A stretch of DNA of 64,000 nt from Bacteroidota bacterium (GTDB lineage Bacteria; Bacteroidota; Bacteroidia; Bacteroidales; NBLH01), in contig JANYKN010000116.1 of the NCBI GenBank assembly GCA_025361565.1, forward strand, positions 124,001 through 188,000, in the 5' to 3' direction. Below are positions 46,843 to 53,800 of the stretch, one piece after another. A program made the position numbers and the translations under genes. The notes under the pieces were generated by a model, which ran no database searches, had not been told where the DNA came from, and saw nothing but the letters and a program-made list of their open reading frames with translations. Position 1 is the first letter of the stretch, and each line of letters begins with the position of its first letter.

Positions 46843-46868
46843 AATAATTGCTTTCACAAAACAACAAT

Positions 46869-49800
46869 ATGAAGGATAAAATAGAATTGATACTAAAATA
46901 CAGGCAAAAAATCATTGCTGCTAATAAAGAACTACCAAAGAAAGAGATATTTAAAGACCTTTTAAATAGATTATATGGTAATGATAAGGAAATTGAAAAA
47001 GTTATTGATAAAATATCCCTTGGTTCAGAAACTTCAGTTTTAAATATCCCTCGTAAAGATAAAATGCACCGTGGCAGTGCAGATAGCTTGTTTAATAAGA
47101 TCATTATTGAGTTTGAAAATAACCTTAAAGTTTCTGGCGCACATGCTAAAGAACAATTAGCAGGGTATTTGTTGGGTCAGTTCAATTCAGGTGAGGGTTA
47201 TAATTTCACCTTAATAAGTTCTGATTTTATAGATTGGAAAATTTTTGCCCCTGATATTTCATGTCTTGATAAATTAGATACTCTAAATGAACATGAACTC
47301 ATTTTAAATGAAATAGTAAAATCCTCTTTTTCACTTACTGAACATAATGCCGAAGATTTTTATTATTGGATAGATCGGTTTTTATTTAAAGAAGAAAATC
47401 TGAAAGCAACATTAAAAAGGGTTGAAGAAGCTTTTGGATACCAAAGTCCTGTATTTATTGAAAACTTTAGGCAATTGAATACGTGGTTTAATGAAGCCAA
47501 AAAATATGGTGAGGTACAAGTATCATATGAGCAATGGCGTAAGTTCCTTAGTATTGCCTATGGTAGTTTCGATGCCAGTGAAAACAACTTTCTAATACAT
47601 ACATACCTAAGCGTTTTTTCCAAAATGCTGGCCTATGCAGTTGTGTCAAACGATGATTATATAGATGATGAAGAAATGCGTAAAGTGCTTGATGGTTCTA
47701 TATTTCATAATTACAATATAAATAATTTTGTCGATAATGACTTTTTTCATTGGGTAAAAACCGACCGTAATTTTAACAACCTAAAAAAATCTTTTAGATT
47801 AATTGCACAGGAAATCTCAACTTTCGATTTTACCAATGTTGACGAAGATATTTTAAAAGGTGTTTATCAAGAACTTATTGATTTAGATACCCGACATTCA
47901 TTGGGTGAATATTACACTCCTGACTGGCTTTGTCAGCGTATAGTAAATGAGTTTGAATTTAAACCTACCGACAAAATATTAGATCCTTCATGCGGAAGTG
48001 GTTCATTTCTAAGGGCAATTATTCACCAGATAAGAAAAAACAATCCGTCAATTGAAGCAGCAGATATAAATGCACAAGTTTATGGTATCGATATCCATCC
48101 TTTATCTGTTCAAATTGCAAAAACAACATTATTGTTGGCTCTTGGCAAAGACATAAGTAAATCAAAAAAACCTGTTCACCTAAATATTATTTTAGCGAAT
48201 ACTTTGCTTGCTCCTGAAGGTGTAAAAAATCTTTGGGGCAGCCAGTTTACTATGCCTATTGATAAAGAAAAATATGTTCTGAACACTCAAGTCTTTGAGG
48301 ATGTAAAGTTATTCGACGATTCACTTGATTTATGCGAAGAGTTGGCAGAGCAAACCATGCATAAAAAAATTACAGAAAAAGATGATTTTATAAAAATACT
48401 CACATTACACCGAAAGCATAATGGGTTAAACTCGCAAATTACTGATAGTTTCTATGAAATATATAAAGGTTTCAAAAGTGTAAAAGAAAAAGGCCGTGAT
48501 AGTATTTGGAAGTTTATCATCCAAAATCTTTATAAACCTTATTTCCTATCAAACCAATTCGATTATATTATTGGCAATCCACCATGGTTTACTTATAGCT
48601 CCATCAAAAATGAAGAATATCAGGATATACTTGATAAATTAGCAACTACATATGATGTAAAACCTACTAAAGTAGCTGATTATCCGCATCTTGAAATTGC
48701 AGCTATATTTTTAGCTTATTGCAATAATTATTTTCTAAAAGATGGAGGAAAACTTAGTTTTGTTTTACCACGTAGCTTTTTTAGTGGCAGTCAGCATGAC
48801 AATACTCGAAGTGGGAAAGCCAAAGGATTCAAACTGAACAATATTTGGGATTTGAATGATGTTTCACACTTGTTTCGTATACCAAGCTGCGTACTTTTCT
48901 CCGAAAAGGCCAAAGAAAAAAGAGCTTTGCCTTCTACTGGTTTGCATGGCCTGTCTTTTTCTGGAAATCTGCCAGCACACAATTGCAATTATGTCGCTGC
49001 AAAACCTAAACTAATTGAAACAAAGCTAACTTGGTTCTATTCAAAACAAGGCAAGGCCACAGCATTTAGCACCAAAAAACAAAAAAAACAAACATCAGTT
49101 AATCCATACAAAAGTAAGTTCAAGCAAGGTGCTACCATTGTTCCTCGTACTTTTTATTTTGTGGAACTTACTCAGGAAACACCGCCTGATTTTGAAGACC
49201 GAATAATTAATCTCAAAACCGCTGATGCGGTGAAGCCCGATGCAAAAGCTCCGTGGAAGGACATTGCTTTTTCGAGCAAAATTGAAAGCCGTTTTATCTT
49301 TCGTACTGCATTATCTAAAAGCATTCTTCCATTTGCCCTTTATCAACCTGCTTTGGTAGTATTGCCAATTACTATTGAAACAAATAATGTAAATGAGAAG
49401 GAAATTAAGCTACATTCAGCTGAAAAGCTTATAAATGAGGGATATCTTAATGCTTCGCGATGGTTCACGAATGCTGAAAACATTTGGAAAATACACCGAA
49501 CTGAAAAGAATGAAGTTATTAGCAGTGAAAATTATTTGAATTGGCAAAATAAGCTTACATCTCAAAATTTAAATGCTCGTTTTTTAGTGCTATACAATTC
49601 GTCCGCAAAAGATGCAAATGCAACTGTAGTGAAACGTGATTCAACTGATTTTGAGTTTATCGTTGAAAGTGTAGCCTATGTGCTATATACTAATAACGAG
49701 AAGGAAGCATATTATTTAACAGCTATACTTAATTCAACTGCACCTAATGAACTTATGAAAGATTTTCAAGCAAAAGGTTTATTTGGGGCAAGACATGTCC

Positions 49801-50036
49801 ATAAAAAAATCTTAGATGTTTACTTTCCAAAATTCGATGAAAAAGATAGCAATCATTTAAAATTGGCAGAAATAAGTCAAGTCGCTCACGAAAAAACTTC
49901 TCAGTATTTGATAAATAATCCGCCAAAACAGGAATTAACCGCAATGCATTTAGGGCGTTTGCGTGTTGATATTAAAAAGCATTTGGCTAAAGAACTAATA
50001 GAAATAGACGAGATTGTGAAGAAAATTATAAAGTAA
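46869..50036 (+). CDS. Stand-alone N6-adenine DNA methyltransferase, possible type IIG restriction-modification enzyme
   Basis: A 1055-residue protein. The N-terminal domain (about 1-150) contains RGSADSLFNKIIIEFE (about 67-83), whose Asp and E-x-E spacing resembles a PD-(D/E)xK nuclease core. A helical region leads to LGEYYTPDWL (about 344) and the AdoMet motif DPSCGSGSFLRA (about 372). The catalytic motif IV is GNPPWFTY (about 569). The remaining 450 residues are probably the target-recognition and C-terminal helical parts. Enzymes of this layout can be single-chain restriction-modification proteins that methylate one adenine. No separate S, R, helicase, BREX or DISARM gene is near. The frame opens at TTG 46848; I prefer ATG 46869. 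Confidence 0.85.
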   Translation: MKDKIELILKYRQKIIAANKELPKKEIFKDLLNRLYGNDKEIEKVIDKISLGSETSVLNIPRKDKMHRGSADSLFNKIIIEFENNLKVSGAHAKEQLAGYLLGQFNSGEGYNFTLISSDFIDWKIFAPDISCLDKLDTLNEHELILNEIVKSSFSLTEHNAEDFYYWIDRFLFKEENLKATLKRVEEAFGYQSPVFIENFRQLNTWFNEAKKYGEVQVSYEQWRKFLSIAYGSFDASENNFLIHTYLSVFSKMLAYAVVSNDDYIDDEEMRKVLDGSIFHNYNINNFVDNDFFHWVKTDRNFNNLKKSFRLIAQEISTFDFTNVDEDILKGVYQELIDLDTRHSLGEYYTPDWLCQRIVNEFEFKPTDKILDPSCGSGSFLRAIIHQIRKNNPSIEAADINAQVYGIDIHPLSVQIAKTTLLLALGKDISKSKKPVHLNIILANTLLAPEGVKNLWGSQFTMPIDKEKYVLNTQVFEDVKLFDDSLDLCEELAEQTMHKKITEKDDFIKILTLHRKHNGLNSQITDSFYEIYKGFKSVKEKGRDSIWKFIIQNLYKPYFLSNQFDYIIGNPPWFTYSSIKNEEYQDILDKLATTYDVKPTKVADYPHLEIAAIFLAYCNNYFLKDGGKLSFVLPRSFFSGSQHDNTRSGKAKGFKLNNIWDLNDVSHLFRIPSCVLFSEKAKEKRALPSTGLHGLSFSGNLPAHNCNYVAAKPKLIETKLTWFYSKQGKATAFSTKKQKKQTSVNPYKSKFKQGATIVPRTFYFVELTQETPPDFEDRIINLKTADAVKPDAKAPWKDIAFSSKIESRFIFRTALSKSILPFALYQPALVVLPITIETNNVNEKEIKLHSAEKLINEGYLNASRWFTNAENIWKIHRTEKNEVISSENYLNWQNKLTSQNLNARFLVLYNSSAKDANATVVKRDSTDFEFIVESVAYVLYTNNEKEAYYLTAILNSTAPNELMKDFQAKGLFGARHVHKKILDVYFPKFDEKDSNHLKLAEISQVAHEKTSQYLINNPPKQELTAMHLGRLRVDIKKHLAKELIEIDEIVKKIIK

Positions 50037-50163: not shown

Positions 50164-50751
50164 ATGAAAGATAAATTCCAAAACAAATACCGTATTCCAT
50201 CTGCCCGTTTGCAAAATTGGGATTATGGATCGAATGCGCCATATTTTGTAACCATTTGCACAAAAAACAGGGTTCATTATTTTGGGGAAATTGTATATAC
50301 GGCTAAATTGGCCGTATATACGATGCAATTATCCGAAATTGGGACCATTGCACAACAATTTTGGATGGAAATTCCAAAACATTTTCCATTTGTACATTTG
50401 CATGAATTTGTGGTTATGCCAAATCATGTGCATGGAATATTGGTTTTTAATAAACCGGATGATACGTCCGCGCCTACGGTAGAGACGCCCAAATTGGGCG
50501 TCTCTACGACCGCACCCCAAAACCGGACCGCCGGCGCATCCACAAAATGGAAACCAGGCACATTGGGTGTGGTGATAAACCAATACAAACGGATCTGCAC
50601 CATACATGCCCGAAAAATAAATGCAAATTTCGATTGGCAATCGCGGTTTCACGACCATATCATCAGAAATGATGAATCGTACCAAAAAATTAAAAATTAC
50701 ATTCAAACCAATCCTGCAAAATGGAACGATGATAAATTCAATACGGATTAA
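50164..50751 (+). CDS. REP-associated tyrosine transposase (RAYT) 1, Y1/HUH family
   Basis: A 195-residue single-strand nuclease. The HUH metal motif is HVH in VVMPNHVHGIL (about residue 90), and the catalytic tyrosine lies in the C-terminal helix DESYQKIKNYIQTNP. The N terminus MKDKFQNKYRI and the FHDHIIRND segment are shared with the second RAYT at 52486. RAYTs mobilise or maintain REP palindromes. Two such palindromes are embedded in this coding sequence, at 50293-50321 and 50479-50507, adding VYTAKLAVYT and VETPKLGVSTT to the protein at surface-variable places. The frame opens at a GTG at 50119; the ATG at 50164 matches the paralog. Probably functional, but untested. Confidence 0.9.
   Translation: MKDKFQNKYRIPSARLQNWDYGSNAPYFVTICTKNRVHYFGEIVYTAKLAVYTMQLSEIGTIAQQFWMEIPKHFPFVHLHEFVVMPNHVHGILVFNKPDDTSAPTVETPKLGVSTTAPQNRTAGASTKWKPGTLGVVINQYKRICTIHARKINANFDWQSRFHDHIIRNDESYQKIKNYIQTNPAKWNDDKFNTD
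50293..50321. repeat. 29-nt REP-like palindrome inside RAYT1 (GTATATACGGC type)
   Basis: Fourteen-base arms GTATATACGGCTAA and TTGGCCGTATATAC around a single A, with one G-T type mismatch. Same length, centre and AAATTGG core as the palindrome at 50479-50507, but the outer stem letters differ with compensating changes on both sides. Confidence 0.8.
50479..50507. repeat. 29-nt REP-like palindrome inside RAYT1 (GTAGAGACGCCC type)
   Basis: Perfect 14-bp stem: GTAGAGACGCCCAA and its complement around a single A. The GTAGAGACGC outer stem is the same as in the non-coding palindromes at 52.0-53.5 kb. Confidence 0.85.
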
Positions 50752-51814: not shown

Positions 51815-52485
51815 GGTGGATGCAATGAACGGGGTTGCATTGTTGATACGCACTGCCGTGCGATGCATCCAAGTTATTGGATACATTGGATGGTTCAATA
51901 TCATTTTAAAAATCATTTTTTCATGAATTGAAAATCAATTATCGATATTACAGGATATTGGGATACCAAAACCAAATGGGAAATTAAATATTGCGCGGTG
52001 GATGCAATGAACAGGGTGGCCATGTAGAGACGCAATATTTTGCGTCTCCGATAAAAACAAAAAAATACAAAAAAAATCCACCCGATTACAAACCCATCCA
52101 ACATTAACAATTTTTATATACAAACCATATTTAAAAACACAGGAGATATGGGTGGATTGATATGGAAAATGCATACAAACCATACAATAAAATTAAATAA
52201 TTTTAAATGTGGTGGATGCAATGAACGTGTTGGTGAATTATTGGGAGACGCAAAATATTGGGAGACGCAAAATATTGCGTCTCTACGGGATTGTTCGTTC
52301 GATGCATCAAATGTGTTGGATATTTTAATTGATTTGTTCGATGCAACATTATCATTTTCAAAAAACGTATTGGATGCAATGAACGCGGTAGAGACGCAAT
52401 ATTTTGCGTCTCCATAAAAAAAACACCAAAATAAATTTCAAATAAAAAAACCAAATTTCGTAAAGGAAATCTGTATTTTAGCAGC
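51815..52485. repeat. Composite REP block upstream of RAYT2
   Basis: Gene-free. It contains repeated GATGCAATGAAC segments (about 51823, 52003, 52215 and 52373) and GAGACGCAA...TTGCGTCTC hairpins at 52027-52048 and 52391-52412. A doubled left arm GGGAGACGCAAAATATT followed by one right arm lies at 52243-52286. The segment around 52210-52413 is repeated in order at about 53122-53327 beyond RAYT2. Short frames here translate the hairpin as ETQNIASL and are not genes. Confidence 0.8.
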
Positions 52486-53046
52486 ATGAAAGATAAATTC
52501 CAAAACAAATACCGTATAGAATCGACCCGTTTGCAAAATTGGGATTATGGATGGAATGGGGCATATTTTATAACCATTTGTACAAAATACAGAGAATTAT
52601 TTTTCGGCAATATTGTAAATAAGGAAATGCAATATTCAGAAATTGGCGAAATTGCTAAAAAATATTGGCAAGAAATCCCGGATCATTTTTCTTTTGTAGT
52701 TTTAGATGTTTATGTTGTCATGCCAAATCATGTGCATGGAATTGTTATTATTGACAAGGATGATGATGGCCAGGAATGTGTGCCAATTATTTGCAATGAA
52801 CCAATTATCACCAACCTTCCAGATAAACCCAAAAACAAATTTGGCCCGCAATCGCAAAATATGGGATCAATTATTCGCGGTTATAAAACAGGGGTTAAAA
52901 CCTATTCCACAATTAATCAAATTGGATTTACCTGGCAAGAGCGTTTTCACGACCATATTATACGCAATGAAGAAGAATACCAACGCATAAAAAATTACAC
53001 CATCCATAATCCACAAAATTGGGATACGGATAAATTCAATCATTGA
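52486..53046 (+). CDS. REP-associated tyrosine transposase (RAYT) 2
   Basis: A 186-residue Y1/HUH protein closely related to the one at 50164. HUH is HVH in VVMPNHVHGIV, and the catalytic tyrosine is in EEEYQRIKNYTIHNP. It lacks the two palindrome-derived insertions of RAYT1: FGNIVNKEMQYSEIG aligns directly across the first site, and an unrelated acidic/Pro-rich segment occupies the second. It is bracketed by duplicated repeat blocks rich in GAGACGC palindromes, the standard arrangement of a RAYT with its cognate REPs. Likely active on those hairpins; untested. Confidence 0.92.
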   Translation: MKDKFQNKYRIESTRLQNWDYGWNGAYFITICTKYRELFFGNIVNKEMQYSEIGEIAKKYWQEIPDHFSFVVLDVYVVMPNHVHGIVIIDKDDDGQECVPIICNEPIITNLPDKPKNKFGPQSQNMGSIIRGYKTGVKTYSTINQIGFTWQERFHDHIIRNEEEYQRIKNYTIHNPQNWDTDKFNH

Positions 53047-53121: not shown

Positions 53122-53330
53122 TGAATGCAATGAATTTGTTGGCGGTGGGTTGATTGGTACGCAAAATTTGGTAGACGCAAAATGTTGCGTCTCTACGTTG
53201 TACGTTCTATGCATCAAATGTATTGGAAATTTCAATTGATTTGTTCGACGCAATATTTTTCATTTTCAAAAATGCGGTGGATGCAATGAACGCGGTGGCC
53301 ATGTAGAGACGCAATATTTTGCGTCTCCGA
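53122..53330. repeat. Composite REP block downstream of RAYT2 (duplicate of upstream block)
   Basis: Matches the order of 52210-52413: a GATGCAATGAA-like start, a GTAGACGCAAAATGTTGCGTC hairpin (53171-53196), ATGCATCAAATGT, CAATTGATTTGTTCGA, CATTTTCAAAAA, GGATGCAATGAACGCGGT, and a GAGACGCAA/TTGCGTCTC hairpin (53306-53327). Divergence between the two blocks is moderate by eye, so the duplication is not recent. Confidence 0.78.
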
Positions 53331-53441
53331 AAAAAAACAAAAACAAAAACAATTATAAATCCGAATGAATCAACCCTTTGACAACCCCCTCCACCATCAA
53401 CATTTTTAAGGTGCAAATCTTAATTTATACACATGAAATTT

Positions 53442-53534
53442 GTTGGAGACGCAAAATGTTGGAGACGAAAAATGTTGGAAACGCAAAATGTTGGGGACGC
53501 AAAATGTTGGAGACGCAAAATGTTGCGTCTCTAC
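53442..53534. repeat. Five tandem copies of a 16-bp REP arm closed by one opposite arm
   Basis: GTTGGAGACGCAAAAT is repeated five times head-to-tail (53442, 53458, 53474, 53490 and 53506) with single substitutions in the middle copies, and is followed by GTTGCGTCTCTAC (53522-53534), the complementary right arm. Any one left arm could pair with the single right arm. Not CRISPR: there are no spacers. Confidence 0.88.
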
Positions 53535-53585
53535 GTTGTACGTTCGGGGCATCCGAGATGTTGGATACAAATTATTGCACCGCAT

Positions 53586-53800
53586 GTTAGGGGTCATTGC
53601 AATGCCTGTCAGGTGTCATAACAAACCAATCAGAGGTCGTTGAAATGCATGTCAGAGGTCATCCCTAACCAATCAGAGGTTATTGCAACGCATGTTAGAG
53701 GTCATTCTTGGCCAATCAGAGGTCGTTGCAACACCTACCAGAGATCCTTTCTTGTTTGTCAGAGGTCATTGCAAGGAATGTAATTGGTCGTTTCCTCTTT
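53586..53800. repeat. Degenerate 21-22-bp minisatellite (about ten units)
   Basis: Units related to GTCAGAGGTCATTGCAANGC recur every 21-22 bases. Alternating units end in a GCATGT-like or an AACCAAT-like sequence, giving a higher-order period of about 43 bases. No open frame of value crosses it, and the units are too variable and contiguous for a CRISPR array. Confidence 0.72.

Follow-up and report, generated by a model that had tools for sequence, protein, structure and literature searches.

The window analysed here, a stretch of 64,000 nucleotides from a Bacteroidota bacterium (contig JANYKN010000116.1, positions 124,001 to 188,000), carries two RAYT genes, with REP-type palindromes within the first and around the second (Table 1). 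The protein of the first gene scores 57.7 bits against the NCBIfam model REP_Tyr_transpos, which has a cut-off of 80, and gave no Pfam match at 0.001. Its AlphaFold2 model has a mean pLDDT of 85, and the top PDB fold match is 4er8 (E 2.3e-06), the E. coli RAYT bound to its REP hairpin; IS200/IS605 transposases are also among the fold matches. We take H88 and H90 to be the HUH motif and Y179 to be the catalytic tyrosine, based on knowledge of the family. With a HUH motif and one tyrosine, the protein appears from its sequence to be a TnpAREP enzyme of the IS200-like HUH-Tyr kind. It carries the motifs NHVH, WQ and YIQTNP, with one deviating Y-motif position relative to Table 1 of PMC6006769, and an in-frame REP lies between HuH and Y at site 2, as in TnpAY1 subclass 2.4. 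The identification of the gene as a RAYT in an initial sequence-only reading is borne out by these features and by the best fold match, and the gene appears to be of the group 4 or subclass 2.4 type. A gene resembling a type IIG restriction-methylation enzyme lies upstream (window 46848-50036; PADLOC REase_MTase_IIG, E 3.2e-72).

Table 1. Features of the RAYT locus (positions in the window)
Feature	Position	Strand	Basis
RAYT (TnpAREP) gene, 195 aa	50164-50751	+	NCBIfam, AlphaFold2, PDB fold match
Site 1 dyad, 13 Watson-Crick pairs and 1 T·G, central A; REP-derived	50293-50321		sequence
HUH motif N87-H88-V89-H90	50422-50433	+	H88, H90 invariant in 50 aligned rows
Linker codons, residues 96-133, HUH strand to next helix; holds site 2	50449-50562	+	model
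Site 2 dyad, 14/14 pairs, double-foot REP form GTAG...CTAC, central A	50479-50507		sequence
Y179 of Y motif	50698-50700	+	invariant in 50 aligned rows
REP of other type (GTAGAGACGCAATATTTTGCGTCTCC), upstream of paralog 52486	52024-52049
REP of other type, inverted	52261-52286
REP of other type	52388-52413
Paralogous RAYT without in-gene dyad	52486-53046	+	sequence, tree
REP of other type, downstream of paralog 52486	53303-53328
REP of other type, one base changed, inverted	53509-53534

The two palindromes that the sequence-only reading had located inside the first gene are both present; each has one A at its centre and contains the core AAATTGG. Arms of 14 bp had been ascribed to both, which is correct for site 2; at site 1 arm position 12 is a T·G. 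The stems of the two sites were said to differ only by changes matched on both arms, and this is true of three of the four differences (G-C to T-A twice, C-G to G-C once), the fourth being C-G to T·G. Site 2 has the double foot of a GTAG REP (GT[AG]G and C[TC]AC at opposite ends). Site 1 ends in GTAT/ATAC, lacks the GTAG foot and is classed as REP-derived, not as a REP. Read with the next base, site 1 encodes VYTAKLAVYT and site 2 encodes VETPKLGVST. In the AlphaFold2 model the site 1 residues lie at the turn of a beta-hairpin (strands 41-46 and 51-56, block pLDDT 96-97), and the linker that holds site 2 is without regular structure and mostly of low pLDDT. This HUH-Y linker is variable in relatives; the linker and stem type of site 2 are also found in L016, L017 and L021. 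Both sites had further been described as insertions absent from the paralog at 52486. Site 1 does add six residues, but the counterpart of site 2 in the paralog is a linker of similar length and unrelated sequence.

Chance was considered as an origin of the dyads and rejected: two such dyads occurred in 12 of 3000 synonymous-codon shuffles of the gene and in 4 of 3000 random back-translations of its protein, and dinucleotide shuffles of the whole window gave a mean of 0.05 such dyads against six observed, two of them in this gene. However, at least one dyad appeared in 383 of the 3000 synonymous shuffles, showing that the peptides of this protein favour dyads, so that for this gene alone the excess beyond protein demand is real but moderate. 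The case beyond chance is made by the relatives and not by this gene alone.

Within their own genome, the exact forms of site 1 and site 2 match once each and neither 29-nt form is a repeat family with many genomic copies. Such a lack of further copies had been thought to count against a REP within its own RAYT; it is literally the case for exact copies but does not refute the reading, since copies confined to the gene are common in relatives. A near copy of the linker dyad, differing at one stem base and at the centre base, is present in RAYT remnants on contig C42 (L004 and L005). The middle parts of these two RAYT copies are identical; one copy enters an unrelated gene shortly past the linker dyad and the other stops at the contig edge within the dyad, breaks that may stem from recombination at the REP or from the assembly breaking there. 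The second RAYT of the window is associated with different palindromes. The pattern GAGACGN6-14CGTCTC occurs at 13 places in the genome, eight of the GCAATATT type and two its one-base variants, and five of these ten places surround the paralog. Its sister in the tree, L047, has GCAATATT-type dyads in its gene, and together these observations indicate that the two RAYTs of the window pair with two different REP types. The surroundings of the second RAYT hold further repeats. Units of 16 bp, each half a REP arm (GGAGACGCAAAATGTT and variants), run head-to-tail at 53441-53541 with a full dyad at the end, and a repeat around CAGAGGTCATT with 43-bp spacing lies downstream of the gene at 53572-53792. 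A 99-nt repeat with GGATGCAATGAACG motifs flanks the gene on both sides (52291-52389 and 53198-53296, 83% identical) and constitutes a composite flank longer than a bare REP.

The distribution of in-gene dyads was examined in 162 distinct RAYT genes: 80 named loci (the best 80 of 423 confirmed candidates from a scan of species genomes), four from the genome and genus of the window, and 78 from Flavobacterium. The Flavobacterium genes stem from a genus search with a query that itself bears dyads and that matched 69 of 199 genomes; from part of these matches, 84 full coding sequences of 92 detected were kept and duplicates were removed. A dyad with a score of at least 9 is present in 122 of the 162 genes, comprising 53 of the 78 from Flavobacterium, three of the four from the genome and genus, and 66 of the best 80 named loci, the last figure being possibly somewhat high because four of the six rows in the query alignment (the window gene, L004, L009 and L010) carry a dyad. 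Shuffles of the 162 genes would lead one to expect 7-16 with a dyad (ten synonymous rounds) or 2-10 (codon order). The dyads had been described as REP-type, and they do belong to a GTAGAGAC...GTCTCTAC family that RAYT genes of many phyla contain. Most have GTAGAGAC as the outer arm; the inner part varies (GCGATT, GTTGCA, AAGGCA, AGGGCA, GCACTG, GCCCAA and others) with complementarity kept. Among 116 clean in-gene dyads, a GT[AG]G foot is missing from both strands in 16. Where the motifs could be placed (121 genes), the best dyad is found between the HUH and Y motifs in 107 genes, before HUH in eight, and elsewhere or unclear in six. The beta-hairpin site holds REP-type peptides in L027, L044, L049 and L081 and serves as the main location in one clade of Flavobacterium. 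In a separate RAYT clade of Flavobacterium (L232-L243), a GGACAGGTCGCGACCTGTCC dyad occupies the beta-hairpin site in 7 of 11 tree members, with no linker dyad seen. A Flavobacterium RAYT of about 360 aa (L177, identical to L246) has 12 REP copies in its linker when two mismatches are allowed. The strict dyad is missing from 40 of the 162 genes, and one Flavobacterium subclade has mostly decayed remnants, showing that an in-gene dyad is not essential. Some of the 40 retain REP-like peptides with decayed pairing, and the finding of such residues without dyad symmetry, which had been named as a possible refutation, thus applies in part.

Stem type was followed on a quick tree built from conserved columns, in which 52 of 159 inner branches are weakly supported. 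The 44 types of the 122 dyad-bearing genes require 49 changes on this tree, and all of 300 shuffles required at least 91. The same holds for Flavobacterium alone (16 changes against a shuffle minimum of 34) and for the named loci alone, the best 80 of 423 (37 against 49). The possibility that the in-gene REP is simply the commonest free REP of the genome was rejected on the basis of seven genomes with two or more dyad-bearing RAYTs, in which the type, by inspection, differs gene by gene: each dyad-bearing RAYT has a different stem type in G063, G094, G108, G184, G226, G240 and Hyella patelloides. From these sequence comparisons, the view that stem type follows the RAYT protein or gene, and not the genome, appears well supported. 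Single stem types are moreover read in two frames, as judged from the left arm (GTTGCA in 12 and 3 genes, AAGGCA in 8 and 3, GCGATT in 11 and 3, GCACTG in 7 and 2), so the encoded peptide is not what is kept. Retention of the dyads for their peptide was rejected on this ground and because of the synonymous constraint described below.

Synonymous change was compared in codons at identical residues for 31 independent nearest pairs with dyads in register, out of 42 pairs. Differences amount to 10 of 206 inside the dyads and 1165 of 4069 elsewhere (p=1.5e-17), about one sixth of the outside level, in a comparison that takes only pairs with a dyad in both genes and thereby favours conservation. Among independent pairs with a dyad in one gene or in both, the dyad is shared in 7 of 8 at a distance below 0.1, 12 of 14 at 0.1-0.3, 10 of 17 at 0.3-0.6 and 13 of 17 at 0.6-1.0. 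A test by codon column, with few columns available, gave p = 0.049, 0.37, 0.026 and 0.007 in four ortholog clades. Compensatory variation, which had been proposed from the two sites of the window, is real in dyads of this family. In ten rows picked for having the window's stem type (the two window sites, five in-gene copies of other genomes, one RAYT remnant of the own genome and two free copies; nine of the ten distinct), 97.6% of cells are paired and four pairs show double changes, which none of 500 shuffles reached. The inner pairing of the linker dyad is maintained in the orthologs L161-L165, where L163 and L164 show double changes. The sole other exact core copy in the L163 genome lies 38 bp past the match, downstream, and retains the old stem, which indicates that the L163 pair changed in place. 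The site 1 remnants of these orthologs have unpaired changes in L161, L163, L164 and L165, and that of L162 is still paired over nine bp. Taken as a whole, the sequence evidence supports well that the in-gene hairpin is constrained as nucleic acid.

Correction of quasi-palindromes by template switching during replication also makes paired changes, and perfect dyads could in principle be maintained in this way with no selection at all. The paired changes observed are of the kind that such correction produces. Template switching keeps pairing, but it should not slow sequence change, which is slow inside the dyads, and the site 1 remnants in four of the five orthologs were left uncorrected, making this explanation barely credible.

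Selection as the reason for retention would be clearest in genomes where the in-gene hairpin is the only copy. Counted as exact patterns, and in assemblies that are mostly drafts, a GTAGAGAC...GTCTCTAC dyad is present just once in nine of 40 genomes; it is located inside a RAYT in seven of the nine (G014, G016, G017, G020, G022, G032 and G033) and outside in two (G010 and G019). The regions examined more closely cover 21 of 34 matching genomes and comprise 60 regions with 63 dyads (11 of 16 places in G026 and two of three in G037). Of these dyads, 21 are inside a RAYT match, including the frameshifted gene L115 and the fragment L135, three more adjoin one, and about ten lie in other genes that look plausible by inspection. 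In the AGGGCA clade of Flavobacterium, each of the eight genomes has the exact 16-nt core a single time, inside the RAYT. Synonymous differences in this clade number 3 of 196 in the dyad and 799 of 4089 outside. One member (L184) has a further paired change in place; in two (L180 and L194) the GT[AG]G foot is gone from both strands and the inner 20 nt are perfect; and L189, in which the gene is shortened by stops, has retained the inner dyad. These genomes bear on the idea that the in-gene REP is a donor copy, that is, a seed for the spread of REPs after the gene has entered a new genome. A single stem type does span RAYTs of different phyla and some genomes do have free copies of the same type. 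However, none of the eight AGGGCA genomes has a further exact core, and two members lack the foot altogether, and we consider the donor role decidedly improbable.

How the hairpin would come to be in the gene is suggested by its surroundings. Same-type copies are found within 200 bp of the 122 dyad-bearing genes, 40 at the 5´ side and 32 at the 3´ side, which is the clustering that a model of local insertion predicts. In-frame REPs of the same kind also occur in other genes (L152, L155, L157, L141, L106, L107, L109 and L110), which by inspection look like malic enzyme, M16 peptidase, Mfd, KdtA, a methyltransferase and histidine kinases. The clustering and the REPs in unrelated genes make it very likely that insertion near the RAYT gene happens. 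A trade-off between in-gene and flanking copies was not found, flanking dyads being present at 17 of 40 genes without an in-gene dyad and at 52 of 122 genes with one. Local insertion alone may be thought sufficient, in that a RAYT would insert REPs near or in its own gene and copies in permissive loops would persist as harmless, which is close to the reading given in PMC6006769. This is a serious alternative, if an unlikely one. It accounts for the clustering near the gene and the REPs in unrelated genes, and for a main site in a flexible linker that in relatives holds other low-complexity repeats too, and that in L177 holds 12 copies. The occurrence of one type in two reading frames and at other sites, including a third site in L224 and L227, also fits. 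Synonymous constraint in register and paired changes made in place would be unexpected of neutral leftovers, and so would the retention of one exact copy per genome in all eight AGGGCA species.

A nucleic-acid constraint might also act on the transcript, with an mRNA hairpin tuning translation or decay of the RAYT message by structure alone and with no binding of RAYT. The RNA hairpins of the window gene have predicted energies of -16.8 and -23.3 kcal/mol, and the whole coding sequence folds better than its shuffles (z -5.2). Such a role leaves the conserved GTAGAGAC arm and the clade-specific stems unexplained, and the RNA signature looked for in the outer pairs, more G·U than A·C mismatches, was not found (12 G·U, 21 A·C). 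We regard it as improbable.

The explanation that we put first, with belief and doubt about equal, is that selection would keep a RAYT-specific cognate hairpin in the gene, where it would probably serve for self-recognition. In the window, this would be represented by an intact double-foot copy in the flexible linker of the HUH-Tyr protein and by a second, diverged one at a beta-hairpin on the surface. The cognate enzyme could bring the hairpin into the gene by inserting it locally, and selection on the nucleic acid would most simply account for its retention, above all in genomes with no other copy. The role of a self-recognition site appears the likeliest because TnpAREP enzymes, that of E. 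coli and two others, act on cognate single-stranded REP hairpins in vitro according to the available part of PMC8266576. The RAYT protein may recognize the site when it is single-stranded, on the lagging strand, in the transcription bubble or in the transcript, and the recognized site would then be the enzyme's private target. The sequence comparisons suggest that each RAYT enzyme may keep such a target in its own gene. Self-limitation of RAYT expression or activity would be the most probable consequence; a second option is that the hairpin may provide a standing cognate substrate that moves with the gene in horizontal transfer. One further possibility, which we regard as less likely than not, is that some group 4 RAYTs are self-addressed, with the only cognate hairpin of the genome inside their own coding sequence and selected as nucleic acid across species, such that a former transposase has become a one-gene feedback device with protein and target in the same DNA.

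What is at stake is the role of RAYTs for their hosts and the persistence of a transposase that apparently does not move its own gene. The single-copy in-gene hairpins reduce this problem to one gene and one site, in which some ten codons could be recoded with the protein unchanged, and the clade-specific stems offer ready pairs of RAYT and hairpin for the mapping of recognition. For annotation, peptides such as VETRLIASL and RDVACNVST in predicted proteins can be recognized as translated REPs.

Palindromes within coding sequences are known from other systems. The Rickettsia palindromic elements (cited in PMC3733652) are likewise in frame within genes but differ in being CGTC-tagged and in occupying unrelated genes, and CGTC repeats are described in the available text of PMC3733652 as not associated with transposases. 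The GTAG-tagged REPs (Di Nocera et al., 2013; PMC3733652) share the GTAG end and include intragenic copies; the host genes named in that portion of the article act in replication, repair and other processes, and RAYT genes are not mentioned among them. E. coli TnpAREP (4er8; PMC8266576) likewise has the HUH-Tyr fold and binds its cognate single-stranded REP hairpin. It differs in belonging to group 2 and in having bulged REPs, and an in-gene REP is not mentioned in the part of PMC8266576 at hand. For group 4 RAYTs, the literature covered, in part as excerpts, yielded no binding, expression or cleavage results. A REP inside its own RAYT is already published and is not a new phenomenon: predominant REP insertions within TnpAY1 2.4 or RAYT group 4 genes were described by Quentin, Siguier, Chandler and Fichant (2018; PMC6006769), whose available text reads them as probably harmless to the protein, and no other report was found among the open-licence matches listed. 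That text notes an insertion of 8 aa where alpha B ends and not the beta-hairpin site, and holds no selection test on the REP, no inheritance of stem type and no sole-copy genomes. What is added here is the prevalence of in-gene REPs relative to shuffles, the tracking of the protein tree by stem type, the constraint on the hairpin as nucleic acid, and a clade of Flavobacterium in which it is present as a single copy.
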